Assembly (NCBI GenBank): GCA_001972305.1
Contig: BDDD01002260.1
Coordinates: forward strand, 129,454-193,453
Direction: 5' to 3'
DNA: 64,000 nucleotides
Origin: Cephalotus follicularis
Taxonomy: Eukaryota; Streptophyta; Magnoliopsida; Oxalidales; Cephalotaceae
Shown here: in pieces, positions 15,638 through 64,000 of the stretch
Position numbering within the stretch: position 1 is the stretch's first letter
Layout: every line of letters begins with the position of its first letter
The notes under the pieces: model-generated
What the model was told of the DNA's origin: nothing
What the model saw: only the letters and a program-made list of their open reading frames with translations
Database searches by the model: none
Program-made: the position numbers and the translations under genes

Positions 15638-16883
15638 TGTTGGCCTTTGCAACCCCGATTAATTGCATTACATATGTTATTTTGATGATTAACAAACGTA
15701 GATTACTTGTATGCATAATTCTTTAAGTTATAACTGCATATACTCACTTGATCTTATGTCCAAAGTTGTACCAAGAACATTTATGCAGATACAGGCAAAT
15801 CCAGCCGACTGGAAAGCAAGCCAGTCGACTGCCAAGGTTAAACAGTCGACTCCCAAGGTTATGTCATCGACTGCTTCTTCAACCAAACTCAGAATCTGCA
15901 GAAACACCAATCCAGTCGACTGCCAGGCAAATCCAGTCGACTACCACAGGGCATCAGTCGACTGCCATGGGTACGAAATCAGGCAGTAGCTTCTGTAACA
16001 TTTAAACACCCAATCCAGCCGACTAAAGCAGGGCATCAGTCGATTGCCAGGGGGTCCAGTTGACTGCCAGGGAATCCAGCCGACTGTTTTCAATTGTGCA
16101 ATTTCAGACAGTAGCATTTGTAACCTCCAATTTCAGCTCAACACCCGACTGGAAGAGAGCATCCAGTCGACTGCCAGATAGACCGGTCGACTGCCTACAG
16201 GATCCAGCCGACTGCCCAACCCCAACGGCTATATTCAAATGTACGCGCCATCAATCCAGCTGACTGCCGTCCAAATCCAGCCGACTGGATTTGTAACAGA
16301 CAGTTAAAAATAGATCCGTTAGAGGCACACCTATTTAAGGAAATTTGGAGCTCTTGCACAAGTGATCAAGCATTCAAGTTGCATATTCTCTCAAGCTATC
16401 TCAAGTACAATACCAAGCTTTCACACAATCAAAAGAGATCAAATTCAAAGCAATCCTAAACATTACAAAGCTTTACTCTTACATTACATATACACTTGTA
16501 GCTTTGTTTAAAGTGAGCTTTATTGTAAAGCAAATTCCTACGAATTTGTAACTTTCAAACACTTATTTCACTCATACAAGAGATGTTGTCTCTTGTATTG
16601 CTCGGTTGGAGCAAAGTTGTAATTCGCTTGGTTGGAGCAAAAGTTGTTGGAGCTCGGTTGGAGTTTCAAGCCCGGATTGGGGCATACCTAGTGAATACTC
16701 AAGGGGAGGCCTTGAGGAGTGGACGTAGGCAGTTTCCCGAACCACTATATATCCGTTTGCAATCTCTAAACCCTACACTCTTTACATTTCCGCAATTGTG
16801 TGTTTGTGTTTATTCAATTATTTTGTGGTATAATTGCTAGTAATTTTTATAAGTCCATTCGCCCCCCCTCTAGACTTCCTACA
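15638..16883 (+). repeat. Copia element C 5' LTR (1246 bp)
   Basis: It runs from TGTTGGCC to CTTCCTACA, directly before the PBS. It contains a 17-unit palindrome array (15802-16288) and a CTATTTAAGG TATA-like box at about 16331, which places the array in U3 upstream of the likely transcription start. The partner LTR at 21937 differs mainly by C/T and G/A transitions in the stretches compared. Confidence 0.93.
15802..16288 (+). repeat. Array of about 17 GTCGAC/GCCGAC palindromes (element C LTR)
   Basis: About 17 copies of a 10-12 nt word, most often CAGTCGACTGCC or CAGCCGACTG, spaced irregularly by 10-60 bp. Variants differ mostly by C/T at position 4. GCCGAC copies match the published DRE/CRT core bound by plant DREB/CBF factors; GTCGAC copies are perfect palindromes. 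An upstream anchor, ATGCAGATACAGG, lies at about 15783. The matching 3' LTR array is at 22101-22587. Confidence 0.92.
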
Positions 16884-16885
16884 AT

Positions 16886-16897
16886 TGGTATCAGAGC
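16886..16897 (+). other. Primer-binding site, initiator Met tRNA (element C)
   Basis: TGGTATCAGAGC begins two bases after the 5' LTR. It is the standard complement of the plant initiator-Met tRNA 3' end. Confidence 0.95.
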
Positions 16898-16938
16898 GGG
16901 TTACTCTTTATTAAAGATTAACATCTTGAGTTTAGATC

Positions 16939-18726
16939 ATGGCCTCTACTAGCATGAACAACCAATCCCGACACAATGACGATGTCTCCGAATTTAAGGT
17001 CTCATTCTTTAGTGGTGACGATTTTCCTTATTGGAAAAGCCGTATGGAGATATACCTTAAGTCTAGAGACTTTAGGAATTGGCTTAGTGTTAAAAATGGC
17101 CCTCACAACCCTATGAAGCAAAATGATAAAAACGAACTCGTTTCTAAACCGGAAGACGAATGGGATGAGGAGGACTTTAGAAAATTGACTATAGATAACA
17201 AGGCCTTGAATATATTACTTGTATCTTTAGACAAGACCGAATACAGTCTCGTTAGGAGATGTACTTCCGCACATGAGGTGTGGAAATTGCTCATCCTTAC
17301 CCACGAGGGTACCGAGCAAGTTAAGAATGCTAAACTTGCCTTACTAAATAGAGATTACGAATTATTCAAAATGCAACCGAACGAATCGATTAAGAATTTG
17401 TATAATCGGGTGCTTGACATTACTAATGGTTTGCTTGGTCTTGGTAAGGTATTTGGGCAGGACGAACTTGTAAGGAAATTGCTAGGGTGTCTCAATGATG
17501 AGTGGGAACCCAAGGTAACGGCAATTGAAGAATCCAAAGACTTGAAGACCATGGAAATTGAAGAACTTCTTGGCTCCCTCATGACTCATGAGGTAAAATT
17601 GAACAAAAGATCCGCAAATGTGGTGGAGACAAAGCCGCAAGAGGAGAGAAGAAAGGACATTGCTCTCAAAAGTACACACAAGGAAGAAATGTCTAGTGAA
17701 GATGAGCTAGAGGAAGAGGAATATGTTCTCTTTGCGAAAAGGTTCACTAAATTTGCAAAGATGAACAAAGCAAGAAGGTTCCAAAGAAAGAACTTCAACA
17801 AGGGAGAGGGAAGCAAGATGGATCCTCCCACATGCTTTGAATGCAATAAACCGGGGCACATCAAAGTTGATTGTCCACAATTGAAGAAAAAGAAGTTATT
17901 CAAGAAGAAAGCACTCAAGGCATGGCACCTTAGTGATGACGAATCATCCGATGATGAAGTCACCGAGCAAGTGGCAAACCTATGCTTCATGGCATTGAGT
18001 GATGATGAGGATAGCGAAAATGAGGTAGGTGACTCTTACACTTTTGGTGAATTGTAATTTGCATTTGATGAATTGCTTGTAGAATTTAAGAAAAAATGTT
18101 CACAATGTTCACTTCTTAAGAAAACCATGACTAGTGTAGAAAAAGAAAAGGATTTACTAGTTGTTGAAAATGAGCATTTAAGAAATGGCATTGCTATGTT
18201 AGAGCATGAACTAGGTAAAAAGGAAAATGACATAGCTAAACCTAATTCATCTAGTGACATTGCATTAGAAAAAGAAGTAGAGTCCCTAAGAGAAAAGAAT
18301 GTGAATTTAGAAAAATCTTTTAGTAAATTCACATTAGGTAGCAATAAACTAGAAGAAATGCTAGGTAGCCAAAGATCTTACCTAGATAAGACCGGTATAG
18401 GTTATACCCCTCTAGAGGTTAAAGCTAAATTGAAAAATGCTAAAATAAGACCTCATTGTACTTATTGCAATAAATTGGGACATACTAGAAATAAATGTTT
18501 TAGAAGAATTGCACATTCACATCACTCACACACTAGACCATCACCTTATCATGATCCAATTACTTTTAGACAAGTGTGGGTTCCCAAGGGAACTATTAGT
18601 CCTAAAAGTAACATTAAAGGACCCAATAAACAATGGGTACCAAGATCAAATTCTTTTAATGTTTTTGTAGGTGGAACAATGCTTGCGGGCAAACCACAAA
18701 GAGGAGCAACCGTGGTATGTGGATAG
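16939..18726 (+). pseudogene. Copia element C gag (one in-frame stop)
   Basis: Gag packages the element RNA into virus-like particles. The frame opens at ATG 16939 and is interrupted once by TAA 18055-18057, then continues in the same frame to 18726. The first part (372 aa) has the plant copia gag fold (FSGDDFPYWKSRMEIYLKS near residue 24) and a zinc knuckle CFECNKPGHIKVDCP near residue 298. The second part (after 18057) is a coiled coil followed by another knuckle-like CTYCNKLGHTRNKCF. Lys-rich linkers fit RNA binding. The frame overlaps pol in another frame at 18671-18726. Without readthrough the stop leaves a gag lacking the second knuckle. Confidence 0.88.
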
Positions 18727-19936
18727 CGGGTGCTCAAAGCACATGACGGGTGACAAAAGCCTTTTCATCGATCTTAAAGAAGTTGATGGAGGAAAGGTCA
18801 CCTTTGGGGATAACAACAAGGCCAAGATTTGTGACATTGGTTCAATTGGTAACAATTTCTCAACTCTTATTGAAAATGTATCTTATGTTGTACGCCTTAA
18901 GCATAATTTGCTTAGTGTGAGTCAATTATGTGATAAAGGATACAAAGTTAATTTTGAGTCCTCACTTTGTCACATTATTGATTCTAGCACCAATATTGTA
19001 AAGTTTGTTGGTCTTAGACAAGGCAATGTGTATGTGGTTTACTTAAAAGAAATGTTTTCAAAAGATGTTTGTTTTAATGCAAACACAAATGACAAATGGC
19101 TTTGGCATAGAAGGTTAGGCCATGCTAGCATGGATGTCCTTGCCAAACTTTCTAGAAAATACTTAGTTATTGGTTTGCCAAAAATGAAATTTGAAAATGA
19201 TAAATTGTGTGATGCATATGCACAAGGCAAAGAAACTAGAACATCTTTTAAAGCAAAAAATGTTGTTTCAACTACTCGTATTTTACAACTATTGCACATT
19301 GACTTGTTTGGACCAACTAGAACTTTAAGTCTTGGTGGTAAACAATATGGCTTAGTTATTGTTGATGATTAATCTAGGTTTACTTGGGTTATATTCTTAG
19401 CTTTAAAGAGTGATGCCTTAGATTCCTTTGTTAATTTTGGTAGACGAATTCAAAATGAAAAGAGTCTATCTATTGTTAGCATACGTAGTGATCACGGCAA
19501 AAAAATTGAAAACCTTGGTTTTGAAACTTTTTGTAATGAACTAGGTATTCACCATAACTTCTCAGCTCCTAGAACTCCTCAACAAAATGGTGTTGTTGAG
19601 AGGAGGAATAGAACCCTAAAAGAAATGGGGAGAACCATGCTTTGTGAAAATAATTTACCTAAATACCTTTGGGCGGAAGCCGTGAACACCGCATGCTATA
19701 TAATAAATAGAGTCATGATTAGATCAATTTTAAAGAAAACCCCTTATGAGCTTTTCAATGAAAGAAAACCAAGTGTTAGTCACTTGAGACCTTTTGGTTG
19801 CAAAGTTTTCGTTTTAAATAATGGGAAAGATAACCTTGGAAAATTTGATGCCAAAAGTGATGAATGAATTTTTCTAGGCTACTCTTAAAATTCTAAGGCA
19901 TATAGGGTGTTTAATAAAAGAACTTTATTTCTCATT
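18671..19936 (+). pseudogene. Copia element C protease-integrase, truncated before RT
   Basis: This is the pol N-terminus in a different frame from gag. The aspartic protease has WYVDSGCSKHMTGD (copia DSG form). It is followed by the GAG-pre-integrase segment (WLWHRRLGHASMDVL, with later zinc ligands) and the integrase core (LHIDLFGP, then IRSDHGKK, then NGVVERRNRTLKE), giving the D,D,E residues. In-frame stops are TAA 19370-19372, TGA 19865-19867 and TAA at about 19886-19888. After YRVFNKRT the copia homology ends abruptly at about 19930 and sequence with GTCGAC motifs begins. There is no trace of the RT catalytic YVDD region or RNase H, so the element could not copy itself. Confidence 0.9.
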
Positions 19937-19946
19937 CTGCAGAAAA

Positions 19947-20018
19947 CAGCCGACTGGACAATTGGTCCAGTCGACTGCCTTGCCATCCAGTTGACTGCCA
20001 TTAGTGGCCAGTCGACTA
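19947..20018 (+). repeat. Short palindrome array at the copia replacement junction
   Basis: Four copies (CAGCCGACTGG, CAGTCGACTGCC, CAGTTGACTGCC, CAGTCGACTAG) immediately follow CATTCTGCAGAAAACAG at the point where integrase homology stops. The same anchor precedes the array in the B1 LTR (32375). It suggests that the foreign block entered as a piece carrying its own array, or joined at it. Confidence 0.88.
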
Positions 20019-20133
20019 GAACCACGACAGTCAGGGTTTTTAACCCAAAATCCCTACTGTTTTTTCATTCTCTCTCAAATCAAAAACCTCCCAAACACAT
20101 TTCTCTCTCAAAATCTGACCTGCAATCTTCAAT

Positions 20134-21288
20134 ATGGGACCAAAGAGAGCAAGAGCATCTACTTCAAGGCTACCTAGGGGCTCACAAGTGGAACTTGACT
20201 TCAACAATGACCTCTTTCTCTCCAAGGAGAAAGAAAATAGGTATAATTCTCATTTTAGCTCAGTTAAACTACATTTGGAGAAGTGGTTATCTAGGGATGT
20301 TCTCATTAGCAATCTTGCGATTGTAATGACGTGATTAGAGACTATGGGTTGGTTTGATTATATTTGCTCATCTCACATTATATACCCCAGGCTTGTGAAA
20401 ATGTTTTATGCCAATTTAGCATCCTCCACCACTTGCATTGCCAATTCATTTGTTTTAGGCACTCCTATTTCGATTACTCCCGACTTAGTTGCCGAAATAT
20501 TAGGAATTCCTAATGAAGGAATTACTAATTTTCATGATATTGGAAGAACGGAGGCCTTAGGAATTTGCTTAGAGCAACCAAATGTCAATCCACTTTTGAA
20601 TGTGACTAGTAGCCATTTGCCTATTGCTTCTAGGATCATTCTACTTCTTGTAACAAACACTTTTCTTCCAAAAGAAGGATCACACACCCTCCCCTCCGAG
20701 CGCGACCTTAAATTCGTCGCTTGTGTTAAGAACAGAACCCAAATTAACCTTCCCTATCTTATTGTCAACCACCTCTTGTCTAGACCAAATCACACTCCAT
20801 ATCCTATGCTTCTCAATAGGATCATTTCGTTTGTCCTTACTTCACTTAACATAGAAATTCCGGATGATGAGCAAAATATTAAACCTTCCCATAAGCAGTT
20901 AGTGAATAAAGCGGGACTTAGACATTGTAACATTGTTTTTGAGGATGGTGAGTGGGTCAAGTTGCAAGGAAGAGGTAGAGAGCAAGCAAGAGAACAAGTG
21001 GATGTTAGGGTTGGGGATGATGATGATGATGATGAGGACGATCTTCAACAGTTTGAGATGCGTCCGAGTGTTGGCCCGAGCAGCAGCAGCAGCAGGCCTA
21101 CCTTGGAGTCTCTTCTGGCAAGAATGGATCTTGCCCAGGCCGACATCGAGTTTATCAAAGGGGAAATGCATCAGTTTCGTGAGGGACAAGCAAACATTCT
21201 TCAAAGTCAAGCCGATCTTCTTCGGGGACAAGCAAACATCATTGACATGTTTCAAAATGCTTTCCCTCAGCACCCTCCTCCCTCTTGA
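20134..21288 (+). pseudogene. Extra ORF in copia C, putative plant transposon protein type, one stop
   Basis: The frame opens at ATG 20134 (MGPKRARAST, a basic start) and is broken once by TGA 20332-20334, then is open to 21288 (385 codons in all). The middle reads as the plant-specific domain often annotated putative plant transposon protein (PF20167-like): NSFVLGTPISITPDLVAEIL, then LPYLIVNHLLSR. The C-terminal part has an acidic DDDDDDEDD run, a Ser run and a Gln-rich coiled coil. It sits where RT/RNase H should be and has a pyrimidine-rich leader (20045-20130). Function unknown. Assignment to the domain is from remembered sequence character and should be tested by HMM. Confidence 0.65.
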
Positions 21289-21936
21289 GCTTACATTTGC
21301 ATTATCATGTTTTTCTAGTGTATTGCGAAAAGTTTGTTTTGTAATGGTTGATAAGCTTTGTAAAACACAAGTTATGTTGGTTAATGCATTTGATGTTTCT
21401 TCAAGTATTTAAGGATAAAATGCTTTGATAATTATTGTTTTATAAATGTGGTTTATGATTGAGGCTTTATGTGTTAAATGCCAAAGTGTTTTAATGTTTA
21501 ATGCTTTGTGTTGGATGAATGTCATTTATATGAATGTCTCTCATTGCATTTTTTTTAAACGGTATATGTATGCATATGTTGAGGGGGAGCTCTTCAATCC
21601 ATGCTATGATTGAAGGGAAGCTTCCACTTCTCTTTTTGTTGTTTGACAAAAAGGGGGAGAGATATTGCACATTATTGTTGCACATTATTGCATGAATATT
21701 GAAAGTTTGCATAAATGAAGTTGAATGCATTTGGGGAATATTTAGGGAATATATTGCAAATATTGCATATTGATGAGATGGCTTGTAATCTTGCTTTGAG
21801 CAAGTGTACTTTGTTATGACAAATGCATTGGATATGCCTATATTGGTAAATTTGGACTTTGGAACTAAAATGGGTAAAATTTGTCAAGATTTATGCAAAA
21901 TATGCATGTTTTGTCAATCATCAAAAAGGGGGAGAT
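21289..21936 (+). other. Copia element C 3' untranslated region and polypurine tracts
   Basis: Non-coding. It contains AAAAAGGGGGAGAGAT at about 21649-21664 and a second tract, AAAAAGGGGGAGAT, ending at 21936 directly before the 3' LTR. The second is the functional-position polypurine tract. Duplicate tracts are common in SIRE/Maximus elements. Confidence 0.85.
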
Positions 21937-22648
21937 TGTTGGCCTTTGCCACCCCGATTAATTGCATTACATATGTTATTTTGATGATTAACAAACGTAG
22001 ATTACTTGTATGCATAATTCTTTAAGTTATAACTGCATATACTCACTTGATCTTATGTCCAAAGTTGTACCAAGAACATTTATGCAGATACAGGCAAATC
22101 CAGCCGACTGGAAAGCAAGCCAGTCGACTGCCAAGGTTAAAGAGTCGACTCCCAAGGTTATGTCGTCGACTGCTTCTTCAACCAAACTCAGAATCTGCAG
22201 AAACACCAATACAGTCGACTGCCAGGCAAATCCAGTCGACTGCCACAGGGCATCAGTCGACTGTCATGGGTACAAAATCAGGCAGTAGCTTCTGTAACAT
22301 TTAAACACCCAATCCAGCCGACTGAAGCAGGGCATCAGTCGACTGCCAGGGGGTCCAGTCGACTGCCAGGGAATCCAGCCGACTCTTTTCAATTGTGCAA
22401 TTTCAGACAGTAGCATTTGTAACCTCCAATTTCAGCTCAACACCCGACTGGAAGAGAGCATCCAGTCGACTTCCAGACAGACCAGTCGACTGCCTACAGG
22501 ATCCAGCCGATTGCCCATACCCAACGGCTATATTCAAATGTACGTGCCATCAATCCAGCTGACTGCCGTCCAAATCCAGCCGACTGGATTTGTAACAGAC
22601 AGTTAAAAATAGATCCGTTGGAGGCACACCTATTTAAGAAAATTTGGA
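21937..22648 (+). repeat. Copia element C 3' LTR, truncated by gap
   Basis: It matches the 5' LTR from TGTTGGCC to about its position 712 (AAAATTTGGA), then Ns begin. It has the same palindrome array (22101-22587). In several units the two LTRs differ by a single transition, such as CAGTCGATTG against CAGTCGACTG, so the arrays were identical at insertion and decay by transitions. Confidence 0.93.
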
Positions 22649-22673
22649 NNNNNNNNNNNNNNNNNNNNNNNNN
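22649..22673. other. Assembly gap (25 N)
   Basis: Twenty-five Ns. The sequence on the left is mid-LTR of the copia element and on the right is a Tat fragment, so an unknown length is missing. Order and orientation across it are not proved by sequence. Confidence 0.99.
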
Positions 22674-24839: not shown

Positions 24840-25219
24840 TGTTCAGCATAAAAATGTGTGATTTTTAATGAGTTATTTGTTATATTTTTATGCTTAGAAT
24901 AGACTACTGTGGTTGTGTTTATTTGATTTTCAGGTATTATGCTTATTATTGCGGAATAAGAGAAAATGGAGATAAAACTCTACTTTTCGGGTTAAAGTGG
25001 TTTGAAGTCAAAAATCGGTTAAAGAGTGCACCCACTTAAGCGAGATAAGTCAAGATTTAAAGCTCGGAAGATATTGAATATTGGGCTCATTTTGTTCATA
25101 AAATTATTTGGAGCACTTTTAATTCTTCGGAAAGACTCATTCTGAAGATCCGACGAAAAGATATCGCAAGAAAAGAACAAACATTGAAACAATTATTGTC
25201 AATCGCGCCGCGTGTCAGC

Positions 25220-25455
25220 AAAGCCATGCGCCAGAAAACATCAAGCATAGTTCCAATCCAATTCAAACACCAATATCTGCACGCCATCAGCAGCCCATGT
25301 GCCAGAAATTCACCGCCATGCATGCAACCCAAATTCTCAAGCCCATGTAATACATCCACATGCATTCCTCAAGTCACCACGCCCACATGCAGTCTTCAAA
25401 GCCACCCATGCATGCATACACAGCCCATGCAAGACCAATCAGTCTTCCACGCATG
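25220..25455 (+). repeat. CCCATG/GCATGC word cluster in B2 LTR
   Basis: About ten occurrences of CATGC-type words (GCCCATG, CATGCATGCA, CACATGCA). They sit in the same part of the LTR where B1 and the copia LTRs have GTCGAC arrays. The word is again palindromic, but the match to the other arrays is only positional. Confidence 0.65.
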
Positions 25456-25868
25456 CAGAATAGGAAATGCAAGCTGACAATCAAGCAACAATTGCCGTGC
25501 TTCTTTTTAATTGACAATAACTTAATGCTTTAGGTTTTATGGGCTGTGTATATATATATATTGAAACGTGAGGCAGAAAAAAGAAGAGGCACAAAGAAGA
25601 GTAACAACCGCACTGCCCCTGCTTCTTTACCTTTTAATTTTTTCTTTAATTTTTATTCAATGTTTAGTAGCTAAACTCTTTAAGGTTTTGGGGAAGAACA
25701 AAGCCTAGATTGTTATTGTTTCAATTCCATCAATAAAAATCCTTGAATATTTGATTTGTTCTTCAATATTTCTGCCTTCACACACACTTTGTCTGTCTGA
25801 TTAAAATCCACAAACATCTTGTCAGTGAAGCTTAAAGTTGGCGAATAAATGGTGCTCAATTCAACGGA

Positions 25869-26024
25869 GTCTACTCATACGATTTGTCGCAACGAACACA
25901 CTTCGTATAGACCTAGCATGACTACTCATACGTCTTGCTGCCACGTTTGCCGTACTTCGTATAGACCTAGCATGTCCACTCATACGTCTTGTCATCACTG
26001 CCGCACTCCGTATAGACCTAACTC
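25869..26024 (+). repeat. 51-54 bp tandem repeat in Athila-type LTRs
   Basis: Three units beginning with an ACTCATACG core and ending TATAGACCTA. The equivalent block is at 33185-33315 in the B1 right LTR. It lies near the 3' end of the LTR. It keeps open frames in both LTRs but has no start context or known domain. Confidence 0.85.
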
Positions 26025-26378
26025 TCGTTGTTTATCAAGGTATGATCGTTCAACTCAATGGAATCATTCAATACAATCTACGGTGAGTTTCTATACCCAA
26101 AAACCGTTTCTTTATTATATATTCTCTTTACTTTTATTTATTCCATGCTTTATTTCTTAGTACTTCAAATTCAACGTTATTAATTCTCGAAGTTTTTATT
26201 ATTTTATTTTGCATAATTAGGAGTAGTTTTTAATAGTTTATCTCATAAATTGGTATATTTCGCCTAGGTTGGATAAATTATAACTAGTTTACGTTTCCCT
26301 GCGTTCGACCCATTACTGCATGATCCGTGCACTTGCGGCTATAAATTTTAAAACATTCTAAATCAGTGAACAAGTTTT

Positions 26379-29256: not shown

Positions 29257-29262
29257 AATGGT

Positions 29263-34828: not shown

Positions 34829-34970
34829 CAGCCGACTGCCCAAGAGGGACAGTCGACTGGACCCCCTTTTGAGTGGAACCAGCTGGCTGTTGTGAGAGAC
34901 AGCCGGCTGGGGATGGTGTCGGCAGAGACAGCCGACTGCCAAGATAAGGCAGTCGACTGCCAAGGGTTAA
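34829..34970 (+). repeat. Palindrome array 1 in C1
   Basis: About six units, including CAGCCGACTGCC, CAGTCGACTGG, CAGCCGGCTGG and CAGTCGACTGCCAAGG. The last is shared exactly with the copia C LTR array. It begins 146 bp into the LTR. Confidence 0.9.
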
Positions 34971-41487: not shown

Positions 41488-41568
41488 CTAGTCGACTGTC
41501 TTTAACAGGCAGTCGACTGTCACACCACGCATCAGACAGTCGACTGTTACCCTGTGACAGTCGGCTGT
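41488..41568 (-). repeat. Palindrome array in C2 (proximal)
   Basis: Four units (TAGTCGACTG, CAGTCGACTG twice, CAGTCGGCTG) about 170 bp from the LTR start on the minus strand, matching array 1 of C1 in position. Confidence 0.88.
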
Positions 41569-49662: not shown

Positions 49663-49667
49663 ACACC

Positions 49668-49753: not shown

Positions 49754-49791
<38 letters not shown>

Positions 49792-50674
49792 GTTTTAGGT
49801 TTAGCTAATTATTTATGAGTTTTGGCTTGTTAATTAGAAATCAACCCAACATTACGAAATAAAATTTATAATAATTTGAAAATAAGTGTAACTAGGGTCG
49901 GAAGTACATGAGTCCCACTGGATTATGGTGAAACAAATCAATATATATTAGTTAGAAGTTCGAAATATACTTCTATGAGAAGCTCGGACTCTCATCTGCC
50001 ATTGCACTTCTTTCCAGTCCAATTTGATATCAAATAATAGACTTTAGCCCTTTTTTCTAAACTAAAGAGGAAATGTCCTTTTTAAGGTGTGTCATCAATA
50101 TTTTTTAAATTTAATTATTAGATGTGAAGTTCAATCAAGATCGATTACAATAGAAATTTTGTTGAAGATGTTGTATCAATATATGAATAAATAATAGAAT
50201 AGTTAAATTTTGTATATACAGATGAAATAGTTTAAATATATTATATTGACTTGAAATTTGCATAAATGATCTGCATTGATAGAATTTCAAATTAAACGGT
50301 TTGATTTCTAAAATATCAATCATGAGCTATAAAAGGAGATTTTTTTTATGTACAGATGAAATAGTTAAAATATATTCTATTGATTCAAAAATTTGCATAA
50401 GTGATCTTTATTAATAGAATATCAAATCAAACAGTTTGATTTCAAAAATATCAATCATAAGCCCTAAGAGAAGATTTCTTTTTAGTTGATGGAAAAAGAT
50501 TGAAACAAGTTCCCCGGAAGAAAAGTTGAACAATAATTAGTATTTTTTTTAATTAATGTGAGATTTAAAAAAAAATAACCAACTTTTTTTAAAGAAACCC
50601 CTGACCTCGCATATTTCTCTATTATTGTTTGAGGAAGTCAACGATTAACACACACTAACACGTCATTAACGTAC
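49668..50674. other. AT-rich host sequence with simple repeats
   Basis: No coding region. It has a (CA)n-(TA)n microsatellite at 49755-49790 and the 134-bp repeat described separately. Confidence 0.6.
50219..50470. repeat. 134-bp tandem repeat (two copies) with a dispersed relative
   Basis: The units start CAGATGAAATAG at 50219 and 50353 and share TTTGCATAA, TAATAGAAT and CGGTTTGATTT-like blocks with moderate divergence. A more distant relative occurs at about 54125-54240. Possibly a decayed MITE family; no termini defined. Confidence 0.75.
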
Positions 50675-50682
50675 GATATCGA

Positions 50683-51074
50683 TAGGAATGGCAACGAGCT
50701 GGTTCTGGTACGGGTAGTGTGAGGCTCGGACCCGGACCTGGACCCGCATACTTTGATATGGGACCGAAGCCTGTACGGGTACACTATATTAGTACTAGAA
50801 CCGATCCTACAGTAAAAAATAGGTACCAAACCGAACCGGATTTGTTAGTAATAAAAAAATCTAATAAATTATTTTTATTATTTATAGTTTAGATTTTATA
50901 TATATATAAAATTGAAAAAGTAATATACCCGAGTCGGTTCCAGATTCATAACTCTAATACCCAAAACTGACCAGAGTCTTATAAATTGGTATCGAATCCG
51001 ACCCGAAATCGAATTTCAAAAAAAAAAATCATCTCCTCATTACGGTTTCGGTTCAATTTTAATTATCATTTTTA
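50683..51074. mobile_element. Non-autonomous hAT-type element, 392 bp, 8-bp TSD
   Basis: It is flanked by the perfect 8-bp palindromic duplication GATATCGA (50675-50682 and 51075-51082). The left end is TAGGAATGGCAAC. The right end inverted is TAAAAATGATAAT. All differences among the first 12 bases are transitions. The interior is rich in CCCGGACCC, CGGGTA and CCGAACCGG strings with no ORF. The 8-bp duplication and TAGGGATGGCAA-like termini are typical of hAT MITEs. Confidence 0.88.
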
Positions 51075-51082
51075 GATATCGA

Positions 51083-51830
51083 GAATGACAAATCTGACTT
51101 CTCTATTGACTGCTAACTACTTCTCTCACAACACAACGGAAGGAAGCACAAGAGACAAACATTTCTTATCGTGATTAGATAAGAAACTTAGCAAAATAGT
51201 CCCCTAACTTTGGAAGCTTTCTAAAAGCACATTGTTTTTGTATGTTAGTTTTAATAGATATTTTTTGATGTCATGTTTTTCAAAGTACTTGTTAGAGATC
51301 CATCTATCTATGAATCTGTTTTGTTGAAACTTGGCTAGAGACCTTAATATTTATAACTATTTATGTTTCATTTCGTAAAAATGTGCATACGGTGAAAATG
51401 TGAACAATTATTTTAATGTTTATGGTACAAGTTGATGTGTGGATGAATTTAGCATTACAAAAGTAAATATTAACTTTTTTGAGATGGAACTAGTAATTGA
51501 CCATACTGATTCTTTTAATCAAGACATTTGTGGTGAATCCAAATTTCCTGAAATAATTACATTAGTAATTAAGGTAGTTTTGATTATTAGATTAAAATTT
51601 ATTGGATATAAATGCTCAACATCAGAAAATATTATCAATGATATTTTTAATGTGGTATATTTATAATCATTAGATTTTAATTCAATGAATGAAAAGAATT
51701 ATTGTAGGTACAATTATTATAGAAGATTTGGATTCTTCTCGAAATAAGTTGTGAACTTTTAACCTTGACTCTGTATTTTACACTATTAATGCTTGTTGTT
51801 ACCCTTGTTTTGAACTATCTGCATCCCAAG
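51083..51830. other. AT-rich stretch without recognised features
   Basis: I see no supported gene. An ORF of 75 codons at 51439 has AT-driven composition and no recognisable motif. Confidence 0.5.
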
Positions 51831-52341
51831 TGATATGGGAAAAATTCCACTTAAAGAATAGTGTCACGTATTCTCAGGAAAAGACGCTAGATGTCCTATT
51901 GAGGCATAAACACGTGATCGGGCGTTACACAAAATTTGGGAAGATAACGCGCCATAACGTCCAGACGCCAAATCCGGTGGAGAATCAGGGAAATGCCCGA
52001 AATACTCGACATTTCCTTAGGAGAACACTTATCACCTCCTAAAATAAAATAAGGCAGTTACAATCATCTCCTATAAATACAGGAATCAAACGTTTAACAC
52101 AGGTTGACCATTTTTACATACTAAAGTATCATGTGATTACATTCTTCCTTACCTTGTCTAACTTAAGCATCGGAGTGTCCCCAGGAGTAAATTCTCCTGG
52201 ACCTACGATATGTTGCTTACTTGTGTAGAGAATACAGTCACACTATCATTCTCATTACTTTCTCGGAACTCTCACAACGTTTCTCTCAACAAATCAAAGT
52301 TTTACACGTGAGATACTGTTAAGTAGAAGATTTCTATATCA
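51831..52341 (+). mobile_element. Candidate solo LTR (511 bp)
   Basis: It starts TGATATGGGAAAA and ends TTTCTATATCA, so the termini are an inverted repeat (TGATAT/ATATCA) like Tat LTRs reversed. It has a TATA-like CCTATAAATACAGG at about 52068 and GC-richer composition than its surroundings. Flanks CCAAG and ACATC do not match, so no target duplication supports it. Confidence 0.5.
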
Positions 52342-55300
52342 ACATCAATTAACATCGGTAATTAGGAAAATCATTATAGTATCACCGACAACAAATAAAT
52401 ATTAGAATAGGGCCAGGCACAGAAGTGCCCATGTGAAGCCCCGTGAAAAAGAAAAGTTATTGGACAACATATATAGACACAATGTGAGAAATTTAGGCAT
52501 ATCTGCATATAACGTGTGTTCATATCATTATTTATGATTACATATGCTCTGTTTATTCAAAAATCTCTTGAAATAAAAGTTACATATTAACTAAACTCGA
52601 TCATACTTATGTGGATGTCAATAATCAAGAATATATATCAATAATGTTATTGACAGCATATAAGATGATATAACAAATACATAATATATGATATATCATT
52701 TAATTAATTAATTAAATAATAAAAAACGATATAATTATTATATTTTTTATTAATTAGATAATATTTTATATATTATACATTTATTATCTAACTCATATAC
52801 TTTTAATAACAAAATTTTTAATAAATATGCATCACAGTTTGAGAGATGGATTAGTAGTTTTCGGGTAAGGCTCAATTCCTCAATTTCAAATATAAGACAG
52901 GAATACAGCCGTATAGATACTGGTATGATTGATGGAACTGGAGAATCGGAGATGGATTTTTTACTTTTGAGTAAAGACCACAAATGAATGAAATTCAAAA
53001 TTTTATTTACATTGTCAACCACGAGTTTCTCCACGTTAGCAACGGAGAAATTAAGAACAGAGTTTTGATACGCCACCCACCACGCCTTAAAGAAAATTAA
53101 ACAACAAAATTTAAAATTTGTCAACTCTTGTCTCCTCATATCCATGTTGTTTTTCGTGTTAATTATTTTTCATATTGTTTAAGCGTCCTATTTTATGCTT
53201 TTACCCTTTACGTGATCGAGGAGAGAACAGTTTTGTATATGGACTAATTAGATACATCATACAATTCAATTAAAGACCCGGGGGAGTACACAAAATTTTA
53301 AGACATTATCTACAACATCTAGACATATAATAGCGTCATCGATGTCTTGTTGAAACCAAATCATTGAGAATAATGCATAACCAAATTACATTTAGATTGT
53401 TATGGTAGATTAAACTACCACAGCCTCCAGAGATATATATTATTCAACATTTAAAAAAAGATGAGCAAAGTTTTTTTCTTTTTATATTATTTAAAAAATA
53501 AAAAATGAAACTAATCACACCTCTGAATATATTCTATTCGTAAACCTCTTATTTGCATCACACTATAAAGTAATAAGTTAAAAACTTACCTATGTGAAGA
53601 GCAAAATGCTTTTTTTTTTTAATTACCTTATGCGAGTGTGACGTGTTTGCATTTCCTTTTTGGTTGAGGTACTACTAAGAGGATAAAACCAAGCCTCGTC
53701 CTGTTTACACTATATATAGTAGGTATGTACCTTTTTTGGCCTGGACTTAGCCATATAGCCACTTCTTGCTCATGTAACAACCGTCATGACACCTTCATTT
53801 CATCATTGAAGGAACAATAATACATTATAAAACTTAACGTATTCATGAAGATATAAGTGTTTCTTCCGATGCTACTCAGCTTGTCCCATGCTAGTGTTGT
53901 TGCATATATTTCAAATATAAATAGAGGATATTTGTCAACGCACGGTGCTTATATCTATTGATATTTAGTTCATGAATAATTTATAATTTTAAAATTTAAT
54001 CAGTTTTATCTTTATAGATCATATATACAAATTTTCAATACAATTAAATATTTATAGATATATCATTTTATACACGGTCGTTATATGAGTCTCTTAGAAA
54101 TTCATATAACGTTTGAAATTATTACATGTGGATGTAATAATTAAAGATATTTTATTGATTTAAAAATTTATATACATGATTTACATGGATAGAACTTGAA
54201 ATTTAACGGTTAAATTTTTAAAATATATATCATGAATAGACGAAATACCGGTAGATAAGAGGAAGTTTCTCCGTACCGGTATAGAATTAGTATTATCTAA
54301 TATAATTATATCTAAATATGCAAGATATTGAATTTGCACATTTTAGTTTGGCTCCGAATGGGGAGGCAAGTACACTGTACCGTTAGCCATAGAGAGTGGC
54401 CCTCATTCATGGGCTTAATATTCTTTTATTGGTAGATATATTACTCCCCATAAAAGTGGCTCCACAAATGGTTTCCAACTTTCCTTAACTGTGTAAGTAT
54501 TCTTCCTTGCTGGTCTCGTGCACAAAAGGTTTGGATCGATATGGGAATTTCTTAAACAAAGACGAGTAATTCAAATTATTTTCACTACTCTTTTAAGCTT
54601 CACACGTCACGCTTGCTTTTTCATGTTCATATGATAGGCATGTCGAAACTCTGATTGTGCCAGCGATAGTGACAAAAGTTAACACAACATCAACGACTAT
54701 AATAATATTTAATCTTAATAACAAAGAATTCAGCGTAATCAAAAAACAAATATCCCTCAGATTTCTTTTTATCATAAATATTTTTCCCTAATTTTAAATT
54801 TTATAAAAACTTCTATAAATTATATAATTATCAAGCAAATATCTCTATTTATGTTTAAAATATTTAAAATATTTTCAGTTTTATTTTTCTAATATTTTTT
54901 TTTCATTTTATGAAAATATTAGTATGTTGCTTGTTTGTAGACCGTTTTGAAAAAGAAAAAAATACTCCTTAAACATATCTACATGTCTAATTTTTAATTT
55001 AAAAAATTTCATGAAAATTTTTTAATTATAAAATATTTGATGTTCAAGATATTATTATTTAATTATTTACCTTTCAAACTGAATTGTTTGTGTTTTTTAT
55101 TTTATAAAAATATTCGTACGTTATTCGTTAAATAATGCTCATTAAGAAGAATTAGATATCTAGTTTATTATTCAATAAATTTTATTAAAAAATTGTGATT
55201 AATTTTTTTCATGAAACTCATGTTGTATTGAAAACTAGTCATTTAAATATTCTCAACGAGTTTTTTTTGTGTGCTTAAAACGTACTACAAAGGAATAAAT

Positions 55301-55546
55301 ACTAATATTTTTGAAAAATAAAAAGAAAATATATTGAAAAAATAAAACTAAGGGTATTTCTGATATTTTAACATAAAATGAGGTATTTATTAGACAATTA
55401 TATAACTTATGGTAGATTTTATAAAACCTAAAAATAAAAAGAGGTATTTGTGGTGGTCAACAAAAATATGATTATGGTTTTTATAGTTTACCCAAGAATT
55501 TATGATTAAAAATACCTTAAAATAATATTATAGTCTAATAAATTTA
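52342..55546. other. Long AT-rich intergenic stretch
   Basis: No recognisable gene. A 131-codon minus-strand ORF (52750-53145) has no motif I recognise and lies in very AT-rich DNA, so I do not call it. A diverged copy of the 134-bp repeat lies at about 54125-54240. No RNA gene was recognised by eye. Confidence 0.5.
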
Positions 55547-56946
55547 GGTTTCGTTTGTTTGGAAGAAAATATTTTCTTGAAAAATATTTTCCTCATTTTC
55601 CTGTGTTTGCTAAAATTTAGAAAATAAGTCAACGCGAAATATTTTCCAGTCAACGAAAAATCTTAATATAAATATAGGAAAATGTTTTCCTAAAAAAAAG
55701 GAAAACATTTTCCCCTCCCTTATCTCTCACGATTAAAAAAAAATCATAACAAATCGTTCTCTCTCCCTATTCATGTAAGCTTTTCTCTCTATCTCTCCTC
55801 TCTCTCTAACTCTCTCTCTCTTTCTCTCTATATCTCTCTCTATCTCTCTTTCTCTCTCTATATTTCTTTCTCTCTCTATATCTCTCTCTATCTCTCTTTC
55901 TCTCTCTATCTCTATCTTAGTATGGATATTGTTGATACAAAAATCCTTCTCTCAACAGTATCCTACGTGGAGAACTTTAATTTGTTAAGAGAAACGCTCG
56001 AAAAGGATGCATGGGAGGAAGACGTCGATCTCTGATTCCTGCACTAGGTAACAAACTGGTGGAAGGTCCAGGAGGTTGTTCTCCCGGGGACACTCTGACG
56101 CTCAAGTTAGGCAATGTGCAGAGGGTATAAGGTTCTTTGCAATGTAAAAATGGCTGACCTTTGATTTGTGTTTGATTCTTGTATTTATAGGGCTAGTTTG
56201 TAACTGTCTGAGAGTGAAAAACGGAGGTGATAGCTGTTCCCTAAGGAAATGCCGAGGATCTCGGGATTTCCCTTATCTCCACCCGATTTATCTCTACCTT
56301 CCTTGTTGGTAGTTAACTGTATCTTATCTTCTATATTTGGAAGATATGGATCCCTGAAAAGTAGGCTAACTTCATGGCTTCATTACATAAATGAGGAGGG
56401 GATCCTCTGCAACAGGTCTGCCGAGGAGGCGAACCGTAGTAATGCTGCTGTGGTAGTCAGCCTCTTGCCTCAAGGTCTTCAGCGTCTAGAGTTTCTCCAA
56501 AGACTTGTGCTTGAAGTGAGTGGTCTTATGCTATGTAGCCGAGGAGATTCTCGACACTGTTGCTACAGAGGGGGTCCTCGGCCCTGATGCCGAAGAGAGT
56601 AATCTTTGCATAGCAACCGCGGGGTGGCTCCTTGGCACCTAGGTCGAGGAGGAATTTTTCACATGTCACTGTTTTTGTAGTTAATAAGCTTCCTCTGACT
56701 TGAGTTCGCACAAACTTTGAAACTCTTGAACACTTAGCGGTGTCTACGGAGGACACGTGTCGTTTTTTATTTAATTCAATTTTCCCCCATATCAGATATG
56801 TTAATGGACAAAAATTAATTTTATTAACAAAAGAAAATATTTTCCAGATTGTGTTCCAAACAGTAAAAAATATTTTCTAAATTATACACCAAACACAAAA
56901 AAAAAAATTCAAGAAAATATTTATTTTTTTCCAAACAAACGGAGCA
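55547..56946. mobile_element. Tourist-like (PIF/Harbinger) MITE split by a solo LTR
   Basis: The left end GGTTTCGTTTGTTTGG and right end (inverted) TGCTCCGTTTGTTTGG form a terminal inverted repeat. It extends inward through GAAAATATTTTC-type sequence. The flanking TTA (55544-55546 and 56947-56949) fits the 3-bp duplication of the Harbinger group. Removing the solo LTR leaves about 530 bp. The interior is rich in CT repeats (55795-55918). A hAT origin is possible, but no 8-bp duplication is seen. Confidence 0.65.
55930..56794 (-). mobile_element. Solo LTR, Tat-type, in the MITE
   Basis: It starts TGTTGATACAAAA and ends CCCATATCA with the perfect duplication GATAT (55925-55929 and 56795-56799). 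It shares with the element A LTR the CTCAACAGTATCC-like start, the GTCCAGGAGGTTGTTCTCCC block and the TATTTATAG box, but is 865 bp. Orientation is taken from A. Confidence 0.88.
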
Positions 56947-56949
56947 TTA

Positions 56950-57825
56950 GATATAGATTTTATGGTACTTATAAAAGGTAAGACTATAATAAAATAATTT
57001 ATAAACATCTGCATAACATCAAGGAGCTCATGAAACTTAGTCTGAAGATCAAACTGAGAGGTTTATTCATCAAACTATCCGTATCAAGTAGCTCCTCGAT
57101 CCCTCTCTCTCATTCTCTCTACTTACGCACTCAAAATAATAGAATTTGTTGGGTTTATTATCCATTGATGCAGTTTAACATTGCAATAAGGGTCGTTTAA
57201 TACACTGTTATATTAGGGAGGGTACAAATATAACTCTATTTAATATATCAATTTATAAAATTATTTTTTTATCTAAATTTTTACTATAATATTATATCAT
57301 CTAAAGTATTCACACAAAAATTAAAAAAAATTAATTTAAAAAGATATCTCAAATAACCCATAAATTGAGGACTATCTCATATTCTTTCGTAACAAACGAA
57401 CTCTAACTCTCAATCTTAATTTCCTCACTTGCGAGGTAAACAAGAGAAGTACATTAATGTGAATCACCCTATATAGCAAGTCAATTGAATAACGAAGTCA
57501 CATTACATTATTGACTTTCTACGGTGGATTTATAATGATAAAGAAAGAAAGAAAGAACTATAAATCATGCATTTGTTTAACTGCCTATAACCAACCAAAT
57601 TAACCCAAGTTGTGTGAGAAAAGATTCATGATGCATTTGCAAACCTTTGCTTGTGATCATGCCTAATCTTACACTCAGCCAATTAGAATTATTATTTCAG
57701 AAGTTTGATATGTTGATTTATTATTTGTCCATAAGGTAAAATAGAAGGATAGATATTCCAGCGTATATTTTGGTCGATCTTCTTATTGAGAGATATGGCT
57801 AAATATGTGTGTTTTTGATAGTTTC
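56950..57825. other. AT-rich spacer before element D
   Basis: No gene or repeat recognised apart from a short GAAA run near 57541-57556. Confidence 0.5.
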
Positions 57826-58503
57826 TGTAACACCCCGTGCCTGCAGGGCGGATATGTGGTATTACTCTCAATCCAAAACACAATACAATGGTCGGGACTA
57901 ACAATATAAAAATACGGAAAACTTAAAACTTTGCAATACATAACACTTGTGGAAGATACAATACAAATCCATCTAACAGTACAATGCAAAGCTTTTACAA
58001 TACAGTCTTTTACAATACATCATTAATCCTTCAATACAGTGTTACAATACAATACATAACAAATCAATCCTTTTGCCACGATGTGTCGATTTTGTGCAGA
58101 AAATAGGGCCAATCTCGGGTCAAAATCCAATTTAAAGCCATTATTTGAAAACCAAAGTTTGCAATCAATCATTTGAGGTTAGTAAGACTAGTTACAACCT
58201 CCCAAATTCGATTTCAATCATTCAATTTAACAATTAGGTTAAGGGTTTGCTATAAACCCTAGAAACCTCAATTCAATCACTCAATCACTCAATTCAATAA
58301 TGCAATTCAATCAATCAATCAATAAAACAATAGGCAATTCAGTAAACAAGTCCTACCTTTCACTGAAGCTTTAAAAGTTGAGCTTCCAATCACTCAATCG
58401 ATTTCTATTACGTTCAATCACCAATCCACTCCTTGCAATCGTTGTTCTTGTCGATGAAGATGCAATCCGGGGCTGCAATGGTGGAAGATGGAGCTGCCAG
58501 CAA

Positions 58504-58548
<45 letters not shown>

Positions 58549-58771
58549 GAAATGAGAAATGTGAGAGAAAGGAGAGAAAGAATTGACTTATATATTCAAT
58601 TCGATCAACTCTCCGAAACTCGGCCCAAAATCCCGACTATACATGCATGTGATCAATACAATATCAATAGGTATTAGAATACCTCAATTCAATACAGTTC
58701 AGTACGGTCTAATACGGTGCAATACGGTACGATGTATGCATGAACAGTACCAAAGGGAATTCGGGTTGTCA
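57826..58771 (-). repeat. Element D 3' LTR (946 bp)
   Basis: On the plus strand it runs TGTAACACCCCGTG ... GGGTTGTCA. The first 55 bp match the right LTR at 63105. It carries repeated ACCGTAT/CAATAC words at 58690-58740, where other LTRs here carry GTCGAC arrays, and a (GA)n run at 58506-58545. Confidence 0.92.
58506..58545. repeat. (GA)n microsatellite in D LTR
   Basis: GA run inside the element D 3' LTR. Confidence 0.95.
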
Positions 58772-58787
58772 CTTTCTCCCTTCCTTA
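58772..58787 (-). other. Polypurine tract of element D
   Basis: On the minus strand, TAAGGAAGGGAGAAAG sits directly next to the LTR start TGACAACCC. Confidence 0.9.
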
Positions 58788-58826
58788 AAGGAATATGGTC
58801 CCCAGATTCATCGGTCAAACGATCAA

Positions 58827-60020
58827 TCAATCAAATAGGAAAGGATATGTCTCTCTCATATCGTCCTCGTGCTCCCAGGTGCGCTCCATAGAACCATGAT
58901 ACTGCCATAGAACACTGACCAAAGGGATGGTCTTGTTCCTTAATACTCTGATCTGTCGGTCAACAATCTGTATAGGAGTATCTGTAAACGATAAGTCAGG
59001 TTCCAGCTGAATCTGACCATACTCAATGATGTATGAAGGATCCCGAACATATCTCCTCAACTGAGAAACATGGAACACATCGTGCACTCCCGACAATGCT
59101 GGAGGCAAGGCAAGCCTGTAAGCAAGTCGGCCAATCCGATCCAATACCTCGAAACGTCCAATAAAACGAGGAGAAAGCTTTCCTTTCTTCTCGAATCTCA
59201 TGACTCCTTTAGTGGGCGACACTTTGAGGAAAACATGGTCACCAACACTAAACTCCAAGCCTCTGCGATGAACATCAGCATAGCTTTTCTGTCTGCTCTG
59301 TGCAATAATCAGTTGGTCACTTATCAATTTTACTTTCTCTGCAGTAATCTGTACAATCTCTGCCCCCAAAATACTCTTTTCACCGACCTGATCCCAACAA
59401 GCTGGTGATCGGCACTTCCTACCATATAGGGCTTCATAGGCAGCCATCTGTATGGTCTCGTGATAACTGTTGTTATATGAGAACTCAATCAAATGCAAGT
59501 AGTCATCCCAACTACCTCCAAAGTCGAGAACGCATGCTCGAAGCATGTCTTCCAACGTCTGAATGGTCCTTTCGGACAAACCATATGTTTGGGGATGTAA
59601 AGATTTGCTGAAACTCAACTCTGTACCCATAGCTACCTGTAACTTCCTCCAAAACCCGGAAGTGAAGCGAGAGTCTCGATCCGAAACAATGCTGACAGGA
59701 GCTCCATGTGCTTTAACAATCTCTTTCATGAACAATCTGGACAACTTTTCTCTAGAATAAGCCATCTGAATCGGTAGGAAGTGGGCCGACTTCGTGAGTC
59801 GATCAACCACAACCCAAATACTATCATGTCTGTCATGAGTCAGAGGCAACCCAGACACGAAATCCATGGTAATATGCTCCCATTTCCACTCAGCAAAGGC
59901 TGAAGCAAGCCTGCCGGTTTCTGATGCTCTTCCTTTACTTGCTGACAAGTGAGGCATCTCGATACAAACTCGGCAACTTCTCTCTTCATGCCAATCCACC
60001 AATAGATAAGTTTTAAGTCA
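58827..60020 (-). pseudogene. Element D integrase with chromodomain-like tail
   Basis: The core frame is open from 60002 to 58827. It has [14 protein letters not shown] with first Asp, SIVSDRDSRFTSGFW with second Asp and YGLSERTIQTLEDMLR with Glu. The C-terminal module (PRFIGRFEVLDRIG) is followed by VSVLWQYHGSMERTWEHEDD to the end, a chromodomain-like tail that in this lineage directs insertion to marked chromatin. The start of integrase, with its HHCC zinc region (CLTCQQVK), is in the preceding RT frame. A small frameshift near 59900-59935 separates the two. Apart from that, catalytic residues look intact. Confidence 0.9.
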
Positions 60021-61744: not shown

Positions 61745-61777
61745 TGACTCTAAGGTGCCAAGAAACCGAAAAGGTTG

Positions 61778-62957: not shown

Positions 62958-63090
62958 TCACTTTCAATTCCAATATCAATCTATTTTCCAATAACAATAG
63001 CATGAATAAGCAAGAACACATATCATGCAAATCCATTCAGTCAATCTCAATCAACGCATTTATATACTTAGCTAGCAGGCTGACCAATAT

Positions 63091-63101
63091 CTCTGATACC
63101 A
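63091..63101 (-). other. Element D primer-binding site (initiator Met tRNA)
   Basis: On the minus strand, TGGTATCAGAG lies three bases after the LTR terminus TGTTACA, the standard chromovirus position. Confidence 0.92.
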
Positions 63102-63104
63102 TAC

Positions 63105-63164
63105 TGTAACACCCCGCGCCCGCAGGGCGGACACGTGGCATTACTCTCAATCCAAAACACAATA
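63105..63164 (-). repeat. Element D 5' LTR, terminal 60 bp
   Basis: It starts TGTAACACCCCGCG on the plus strand and follows the 57826 LTR to CCAAAACACAATA, where E begins. CAATA (63160-63164) should be E's target duplication. Confidence 0.9.
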
Positions 63165-64000
63165 TGTTGACATTTATGTCTCAATCCTAAGTTTTGATGA
63201 TAACATATTTGTGTTTAACAAAGTTTCTTGATGTGCAAGAAAGCCATGAAGTGAGAAAAATAGCACAGGAATTCTGCAGATACAGGTCAGACCGTCGACG
63301 CCCAAGGTTAAAGCGTCAGCGCTTTGAGAGGCAGTCGAGACAAGAGCCTAAGCGTCTACCGGTGGAGCGTTTGGAGAAGTGGAAAAAATAGCCAAACCGT
63401 CGACGCCCAGATTAAAGCGTCTGCGCTTTGGACACTAAGCGCCTGCTCTTTGTGCAAAGCGCCTGCCGTGTAAACCAGTGAGCACAATTGGAATTAAAAC
63501 TGGCCCAACCGTCGACGCCCAAGACTAAGCGTCAGCGCTTTGAGGTGCCGGTCGACCCCAACGCTTTGAACGCCTGCGCTTTGAGCTGACAATTTGAATA
63601 TGAGATCCCTAACGGTCACATAAGCGTCGACGCTTTAAAGGTGACAATCGACGCTTTGGTCGGCTGGAACAGTTTCTGACAGAGTTTTAGTGGACATTCC
63701 ATTATGGAACTAATCCCAAACTATTCCCAACGGATCTATGAGGCAAGAGGATATAAATACACGAATGTCTTGCAGAAAAAAAAAAAGAGAACAACACAAG
63801 CAAAACACAATACAAAGATCATTCAAAGAAAACATACAAAGAGCATTCAAATCCAAAGCTCATCTAAAAAGCTTTCATCTTACATCTTGAGTTACTTCTT
63901 GTTCTCACTGATTTTGAGCAAATTTATCTTGTAAAATCCAACCTTGTGAGAGGTTTAGATTTCAACATTACTCTTTATACTTTGATTGTAATAGGGGAGT
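63165..64000 (+). mobile_element. Element E: copia-type LTR, runs off the window
   Basis: It starts TGTTGACATTTATGTC with TTTTGATGATAACA soon after, as in SIRE/Maximus LTRs and like element C. It has a GTCGAC array (63291-63667) and a TATA-like GATATAAATACACG at about 63750. No end is reached. It interrupts the D LTR. Confidence 0.82.
63291..63667 (+). repeat. GTCGACGC / GCGTCAGCGC array in E
   Basis: About 15 units with GC..GC flanks (CCGTCGACGCCCAAGG, AAGCGTCGACGCTTT, AAGCGTCAGCGCTTTGAG). It is preceded by AATTCTGCAGATACAGG at 63270. GTCGACGCCCAAGGTTAAA corresponds word for word to GTCGACTGCCAAGGTTAAA of element C apart from the flank change. Confidence 0.92.

Follow-up and report, generated by a model that had tools for sequence, protein, structure and literature searches.

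Arrays of a GTCGAC-type word shared by Ty1/copia and Ty3/gypsy long terminal repeats in Cephalotus follicularis

Why should retrotransposons of different superfamilies carry the same short word, many times over, in their long terminal repeats (LTRs)? The question is raised by a 64,000-nucleotide stretch of the Cephalotus follicularis genome (the window; contig BDDD01002260.1 of assembly GCA_001972305.1, positions 129,454 to 193,453 of the forward strand), in which six LTR families contain arrays of words with the core GTCGAC or GCCGAC. These are the Sireviruses C and E (Ty1/copia), the Athila-like B1 (Ty3/gypsy) and the chromovirus-type solo LTRs C1, C2 and C3. A first-pass annotation had described the arrays as shared by unrelated families, and had offered either a cis-module moving between families or a common selective force as the cause. 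We find that the arrays are a real feature, abundant elsewhere in the same genome too, and that words, spacing and position are common to Ty1 and Ty3 elements.

GTCGAC occurs 47 times in the window where 4.5 copies are expected, a count reached by none of 100 shuffles, and GYCGAC gives 128 strand-hits against 15.9 expected. The nine arrays named at first pass (2,704 bp in total) hold 44 of the 47 words; two more, at 19970 and 20011, belong to an additional array within Sirevirus C, and the remaining one lies at 23180. Each of seven array-bearing LTR copies contains 4-10 GTCGAC against 0.08-0.27 expected, and no count was reached in 2,000 dinucleotide shuffles of the LTR concerned. The window counts and per-LTR shuffles rule out a chance origin. 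Two control LTRs in the window contain no GTCGAC, namely B2, which is the 5' LTR of the Athila-like element, and the 3' LTR of a further element, D. The arrays start where they had been reported to start, about 100-200 bp into the LTR, with the first words (at most one mismatch) at LTR positions 114-192. Spacing was counted for words with at most one mismatch at distances up to 30 bp, leaving out the 3' LTR array of C: 34 of 40 pairs of close neighbours lie 20-22 bp apart, compared with a mean of 3.1 and a maximum of 9 under random placement, and every one of the six families has at least two such pairs. A TATA-like box, chosen by eye from scan hits, lies downstream of the array in five of the six families (C, B1, E, C3 and, for its proximal array, C2); the scan found none in C1.

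The same features extend to the genome. The 16-mer CAGTCGACTGCCAAGG, found in C and C1, has 6,853 copies in the 1.577-Gb assembly, against 22 for its reversed control; of the eight loci listed, two belong to the C2 type and the remaining six to Sirevirus C, a single LTR accounting for two of these. In a 200-kb sample, consisting of bases 50001-60000 of every 50th contig from C10 to C960 (20 stretches with 15,271 N, not a random draw), GTCGAC was counted 104 times against 14.4 expected and exceeds expectation more than any other of the 64 palindromic 6-mers. It also stands among the top three 6-mers with at least 40 counts, together with GCGTCG and TCGACG. Clusters of at least three GTCGAC contain 66 of the 104 words, in 8 of the 20 stretches, and the 87 GYCGAC pairs within 70 bp include 27 at 21 bp, 5 at 20, 10 at 42 and 5 at 63.

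The words fall into three classes, and each class occurs in one Sirevirus and one Ty3 lineage. Class I (CAGYCGACTG) is found in Sirevirus C and the chromovirus-type C1 and C2; class II (GCGTCGACGC) in Sirevirus E and the chromovirus-type C3 and L076 (L numbers denote further loci); class III (RTCGACGYC, AAGTCGACGTCTTT) in the Athila-like B1 and in LTR F (L080, L073), which is probably a Sirevirus LTR judging by its likeness to that of E. A permutation test on the bases flanking the core groups C with C1 and with C2 on both sides (0/400 permutations), and C3 with E on the right (0/400) and left (5/400). For C and E agreement is limited to the right side (0/400; left 372/400), for C2 and E to the left (0/400). 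Because flank classes cross superfamilies in this way, word class does not simply follow descent.

The 5' LTR of Sirevirus C (15638-16883, plus strand) ends in the junction CTACA-ATTGG-TATCAGAGC at 16879-16897. The internal region (16884-21936) encodes copia gag, gag-pre-integrase and integrase domains plus an open reading frame (ORF) with PF20167; reverse transcriptase (RT) was absent among the ORFs scanned, and the family is possibly non-autonomous. Three AGGGGGAG polypurine tracts (21582, 21652, 21927) precede the 3' LTR (21937-22648, plus strand) and are followed by AT|TG; the LTR is interrupted by a 25-N gap at 22649-22673, and the pair is 97.2% identical over 712 bp. The 5' LTR holds a class I array of 15 words with at most one mismatch (15804-16285, plus strand), upstream of the TATA-like CTATTTAAGG at about 16332, and the 3' LTR array spans 22103-22584. 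The additional, internal class I array has four words (19949-20016, plus strand) and lies 5' of the ORF in env position (PF20167, 20335-21288); copy L054 also has a GTCGAC cluster in this region. The 5' LTR of E (63165-64000, plus strand) extends past the window end and carries a class II array of nine words with at most one mismatch (63294-63664, plus strand), upstream of GATATAAATA at 63752. Locus L086 supplies the LTR end and primer-binding site (PBS) of E, a CA-ATTGG-TATCAGAGC junction with TATCAGAGC at 478, as well as copia gag and an integrase that shares 63% identity with its counterpart in C. A poly-C signal lies near the LTR end in both (CGCCCCCCCT in C, CACCCCCCCCCCCC in E). By these features of their sequence, elements C and E are Sireviruses. 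Sirevirus C (15638) sits 86 bp inside another Athila-like LTR that begins at 15552, and Sirevirus E is inserted at 63165 in the 5' LTR of element D.

Gypsy gag, RT and integrase are encoded between the B2-type 5' LTR (24840-26362, plus strand) and the B1-type 3' LTR (32208-33562, plus strand) of the Athila-like element, whose PBS-like TTTTTGGCGCCGTTACCGGGG may be of Athila type. B1 carries a class III array (RTCGAYGTC, AAGTCGACGTCTTT) of 12 words with at most one mismatch (32399-32784, plus strand), upstream of TATATAAACA at 32876. The two LTRs of this element differ in that B1 alone has the GTCGAC array; the 5' LTR is free of GTCGAC. The chromovirus-type LTRs are all solo. C1 (34684-36961, plus strand; target site duplication (TSD) TCCCC) has a proximal (34831-34957) and a distal (35498-35802) class I array, both on the plus strand. 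C2 (39030-41739, minus strand; TSD ATTGT) likewise has two class I arrays on the minus strand, the proximal one (41491-41565) upstream of TTATAAAC at about 41228 and the distal one at 40351-40439. C3 (43831-46252, minus strand; TSD TAGGA) has a class II array (AAAGCGTCGACGCTTT; 45967-46139, minus strand) upstream of TTTATATATG at about 45735.

Since C1-C3 are solo LTRs, the label 'Tekay-like' that they had been given cannot be derived from the window. Relatives of C2 (L060/L082 and L061/L084) carry gypsy genes. In L060 and L061, which contain CAGTCGACTGCCAAGG, the LTR leads into a TGGTATCAGAGC primer site; L082 has RVP_2, RVT_1 and RT_RNaseH by Pfam, and gag and integrase by tblastn to element D, in gypsy order with RT before integrase. 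Gag is present in both L082 and L084, and their RT is up to 70% and 64% identical, respectively, to that of D. The chromovirus label of the C2 type is suggested by this likeness to element D, which has PF24626 (Tf2-1-like SH3), a domain we take to be chromoviral; C1 and C3 are placed provisionally, by LTR likeness only. From the genome sample, L076 is a D-like gypsy element, its RT pieces being 51-72% identical to D, and both of its LTRs contain class II words. The 3' LTR of D (57825-58780, minus strand) has a repeated word of its own, GTATTG, counted 11 times against 0.43 expected. Because L060 and L061 run into gypsy genes, the same 16-mer stands in Ty1 and in Ty3 LTRs. The array-bearing LTRs might have been mislabelled members of a single family; copia genes beside those of C and E and gypsy genes in L082 and L084 exclude this. 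One correction to the 'unrelated families' is that C and E are both Sireviruses, which places two of the six families in one known lineage.

Arrays also change on otherwise homologous LTRs. B1 and B2 are 88-92% alike at both ends, and their middles cannot be aligned, the one holding the GTCGAC array and the other an array of CATGCA. E and F are 82-84% alike at their LTR ends and carry class II and class III arrays, respectively. No matching TSD was seen by eye for the Athila-like element, which, with its unlike LTR middles, is probably a recombinant of two subfamilies. Assignment of the L073 array to Athila was rejected, its alignment with Sirevirus F extending over 645 columns. A comparable situation within one family is that of Tnt1, whose subfamilies differ in U3 regulatory blocks on otherwise homologous LTRs; we know of no sharing of Tnt1 U3 blocks across superfamilies. 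CATGCA, presumably the RY motif bound by B3 factors, is enriched in B2 (24936-25639; 8 against 0.77 expected) and in the C2 LTR (7 against 0.63), and is a second word common to unrelated LTRs. CTGCAGA accompanies several arrays, standing within or next to those of C, B1, C1, E and F (15896, 19937, 32377, 35634, 63274 and, in L080, about 9230), and is present elsewhere in the window too (2685, 24314, 38977, 41360, 59338); Sirevirus C shares an identical ATTCTGCAGAAAACAG with Athila B1.

We then asked which part of the word is conserved. One-mismatch variants were counted in 15 hand-picked array sets (L073, L081 and the 3' LTR of C omitted) against a background that omits about 150 bp around every GTCGAC, which leaves the GTCGAC row empty by design. 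ATCGAC/GTCGAT was found 25 times (22-fold over background) and GCCGAC/GTCGGC 19 times (31-fold), with F, C1, C and B1 leading the counts. Both variants retain RYCGAC on one strand, and the other seven one-mismatch classes are enriched at most 3-fold. They include GTTGAC/GTCAAC, the variants expected of CpG decay (8 copies, 3-fold), and CpG decay was accordingly rejected as the main source of variants. Conservation was followed over 16 aligned words in six LTRs of C type (C and L054-L058; L059, the same LTR as L058, was omitted). Position 2 of the core is C in 60 cases, T in 34 and A in 1; it varies in 8 of 16 words, whereas position 5, with which it pairs in the palindrome, does so in 1 of 16 (p 0.015). 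The five core positions other than position 2 together vary in 12 of 80 columns, compared with 123 of 409 spacer columns (p 0.006). These p values are rough, as L054/L055 (98.3%) and L056/L057 (97.7%) may each be the two LTRs of one element. Because the enriched variants keep RYCGAC, and because position 2 is free and position 5 is not, the constrained unit looks like a directional RYCGAC rather than the palindrome, which may be a by-product or an optimum. This unit includes the DRE core RCCGAC and matches the core (RCCGAC/RYCGAC) of the dehydration-responsive element/C-repeat (DRE/CRT) bound by CBF/DREB factors; RYCGAC itself is listed as the barley CBF/CRT entry CBFHV (PMC4482647).

We propose that the arrays are U3 enhancers for a host factor of AP2/ERF type, acquired repeatedly and kept by selection for transcription, a proposal to which we give an even chance. 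Its site unit would be RYCGAC (GTCGAC, GCCGAC or ATCGAC), repeated every 20-21 bp, or two helical turns, and for the most part upstream of the LTR TATA box, and the likeliest reader would be an AP2/ERF protein of the DREB/CBF (DRE/CRT-binding) kind. A stress or developmental cue activating that factor would also activate the elements. Sireviruses, chromoviruses and the Athila-like element would each have gained arrays by local duplication of the unit from chance sites, perhaps helped by short exchange between co-transcribed elements, and selection for transcription would have retained them. The common selective force suggested at first pass is supported by the shared spacing, by the enrichment of RYCGAC variants alone and, in copies of LTR C, by five core positions that together vary less than spacers, though not clearly less than the LTR outside the array.

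Several observations weigh against the enhancer proposal. Variation outside the array, at 52 of 238 columns, is near the 12 of 80 for the five core positions, and mean divergence is 0.096 for whole cores, 0.097 outside the array and 0.132 for spacers; as the LTR outside the array varies little more, core constraint is visible against the spacers only, and the figures come from related copies of LTR C, with pairs at 98%. The array of C has not been spared changes since insertion: 17 of the 20 differences between the LTRs of the element fall within the array, 482 of 712 bp. Helical phasing beyond 30 bp is weak (best R 0.41, p 0.036, uncorrected over seven periods), C1 and C2 have a second array farther downstream in the LTR, and some words have palindromic arms of 7-8 bp, longer than a monomeric site requires. 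Each class has its own flanks (CAG..CTG, GCG..CGC, AAG..GTCTT), and therefore one factor may not read all classes. Two further findings fit exchange between families better. Sites with RYCGAC on one side are sense-only in 34 cases and antisense-only in 9 (34 of 43 along transcription; 11 hand-picked oriented arrays, sites mostly from F, C1 and C, with L073, L081 and the 3' LTR of C omitted), and C is unusually like L061 and the C1 array C1a.

According to such an exchange model, short array pieces moved from Sireviruses to chromoviruses and Athila, or back, by template switching of co-packaged RNAs or recombination of nested copies, and were then duplicated locally. The first-pass annotation had noted that C and C1 share CAGTCGACTGCCAAGG and no other sequence that it could see; this 16-mer is indeed their longest common string, and blastn between the two LTRs gives 15 matches, all of them inside the arrays or no farther than about 20 bp away. 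Exchange would leave identical 16-mers and flanks in the same orientation, and it would fit the sense bias, the flank classes that cross superfamilies to join C to C1 and C2, and C3 to E, and the U3 middles swapped in B1/B2 and E/F. Alignments of same-class arrays across superfamilies were compared with shuffles that preserve the words and four flanking bases. Three pairs surpass nearly all shuffles: C-L061, with 39 of 43 bases alike, was equalled by none of 100 spacer shuffles whichever of the three flank settings was used; for C-C1a (40 of 49) the counts were 0, 1 and 1 of 100, and for F-B1 (34 of 40) 0, 0 and 1 of 100. The other 7 of 10 pairs are matched by at least 6 of 100 shuffles, no alignment exceeds 60 columns, and no donor-recipient pair with a sharp junction was found. 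Transfer of a long module is rejected on these grounds, and the moving cis-module offered at first pass is not supported at length; short exchange may contribute, and as the principal route by which arrays spread we regard it as possible but rather unlikely.

The words could instead be bound by a sequence-specific protein that a transposable element (TE) encodes, a VANC-like anti-silencing factor that unrelated elements borrow in trans. The design is the same, with short oriented motifs in dense non-coding arrays that grow by tandem duplication, array types change on homologous backbones, and VANC6 motifs occur also in the unrelated AT9TSD1 (PMC5735166); the fit of the core to a host cis-element and the location of most arrays at promoters make this improbable. 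Of similarly low probability, in our estimate, is action as RNA, through transcript hairpins that affect packaging, dimerisation or small-RNA silencing. Maize Sireviruses are described as having small-RNA hotspots in their palindrome regions (PMC5311732, PMC10760457), and all five arrays tested fold better than the shuffle mean (z -1.7 to -4.3, compared with 0.55 for a control U3), with 6 of 100 shuffles for E and 6 of 200 for C3 folding as well as the array. Good folding is however expected of any palindrome array, the fold tests did not discriminate between readings, the variation is asymmetric (position 2 free, position 5 not), and a 21-bp spacing has no obvious reason in RNA. Neutral growth of a minisatellite, in which unit slippage amplified chance words without function, would account for the 20-bp units at 76-78% that Tandem Repeats Finder reports in C, for the mutations that arrays gather after insertion and for cores as diverged as the LTR outside the array. 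An identical core and unit length in unrelated LTRs with proven gypsy and copia genes, and cores less variable than spacers, speak against it, and we consider it very improbable.

The enhancer proposal could be widened, tentatively and with more doubt than belief, to one factor family, host- or TE-encoded, acting as a 'master key' for LTR promoters. Ty1 and Ty3 elements would have converged on one grammar, a directional RYCGAC every 21 bp upstream of TATA and often opened by CTGCAGA; lineages would switch among a few flank classes independently of descent, and array class rather than phylogeny would predict expression. If this were true, a 1.58-Gb plant genome would hold thousands of copies of one regulatory word, with a bearing on how stress wakes transposons, on the sharing of, or competition for, host factors among unrelated elements, and on the seeding of new enhancer sites near genes. 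The purpose of the Sirevirus palindromes would become a testable question, namely whether oriented RYCGAC at 21 bp drives transcription.

How do the arrays compare with known systems? The closest are the palindromic repeated motifs (RMs) of 13 Sireviruses, present in 8-32 copies upstream of TATA and of ENV (PMC2829016, Bousios 2010). The first-pass annotation knew of no described system, which is wrong for the copia part, as that paper includes a Vitis RM, CGGTCGACCG, that contains GTCGAC. The likeness is close: many short palindromic words lie in U3 just upstream of TATA, with 15 words in C and 9 in E where an RM needs a palindrome in at least eight copies, and the pre-env array of Sirevirus C matches the RM position upstream of ENV (PMC2829016). 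In contrast, the CGG-CCG core signature described for 12 of the 13 RMs is not the rule here, where typical words are CAGYCGACTG, GCGTCGACGC and AAGTCGACGTC, and the constrained unit looks like a directional RYCGAC at 20-21 bp. Furthermore, RMs are termed Sirevirus-specific, and absent from the 30 classic copia elements studied, in the passages available from PMC2829016, whereas here the same core is found also in two Ty3 lineages (L082, L084 and L076; Athila-like B1).

Heat elements have been gained repeatedly by copia families, ONSEN among them (PMC5059998, Pietzenuk et al. 2016), and there too several LTR families independently acquired arrays of one host factor's sites. Those are heat shock factor sites in Brassicaceae copia families, and the available passages of PMC5059998 describe no common Ty1/Ty3 spacing. 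The same source cites a putative CRT/DRE cold element, CCGAC, proposed in the LTR of alfalfa MCIRE; this is a DRE/CRT core within an LTR, but, as described there, in one family and without arrays common to families. VANC target motifs in VANDAL transposons (PMC5735166, Hosaka et al. 2017) similarly form dense, oriented arrays of short words in non-coding TE DNA that differ between related TEs, the motifs being other ones; cis-regions of TEs are described as often being arrays, at times palindromic (PMC10760457); PMC6911290 concerns palindromes at insertion sites, not arrays. Among the matches listed in open-licence PMC papers there was no report of arrays shared across Ty1 and Ty3. Palindromic arrays upstream of TATA in Sireviruses are thus already known from PMC2829016; what is new is their sharing with two Ty3 lineages, the common 21-bp spacing, the word classes that cross superfamilies and the array swaps on homologous backbones.

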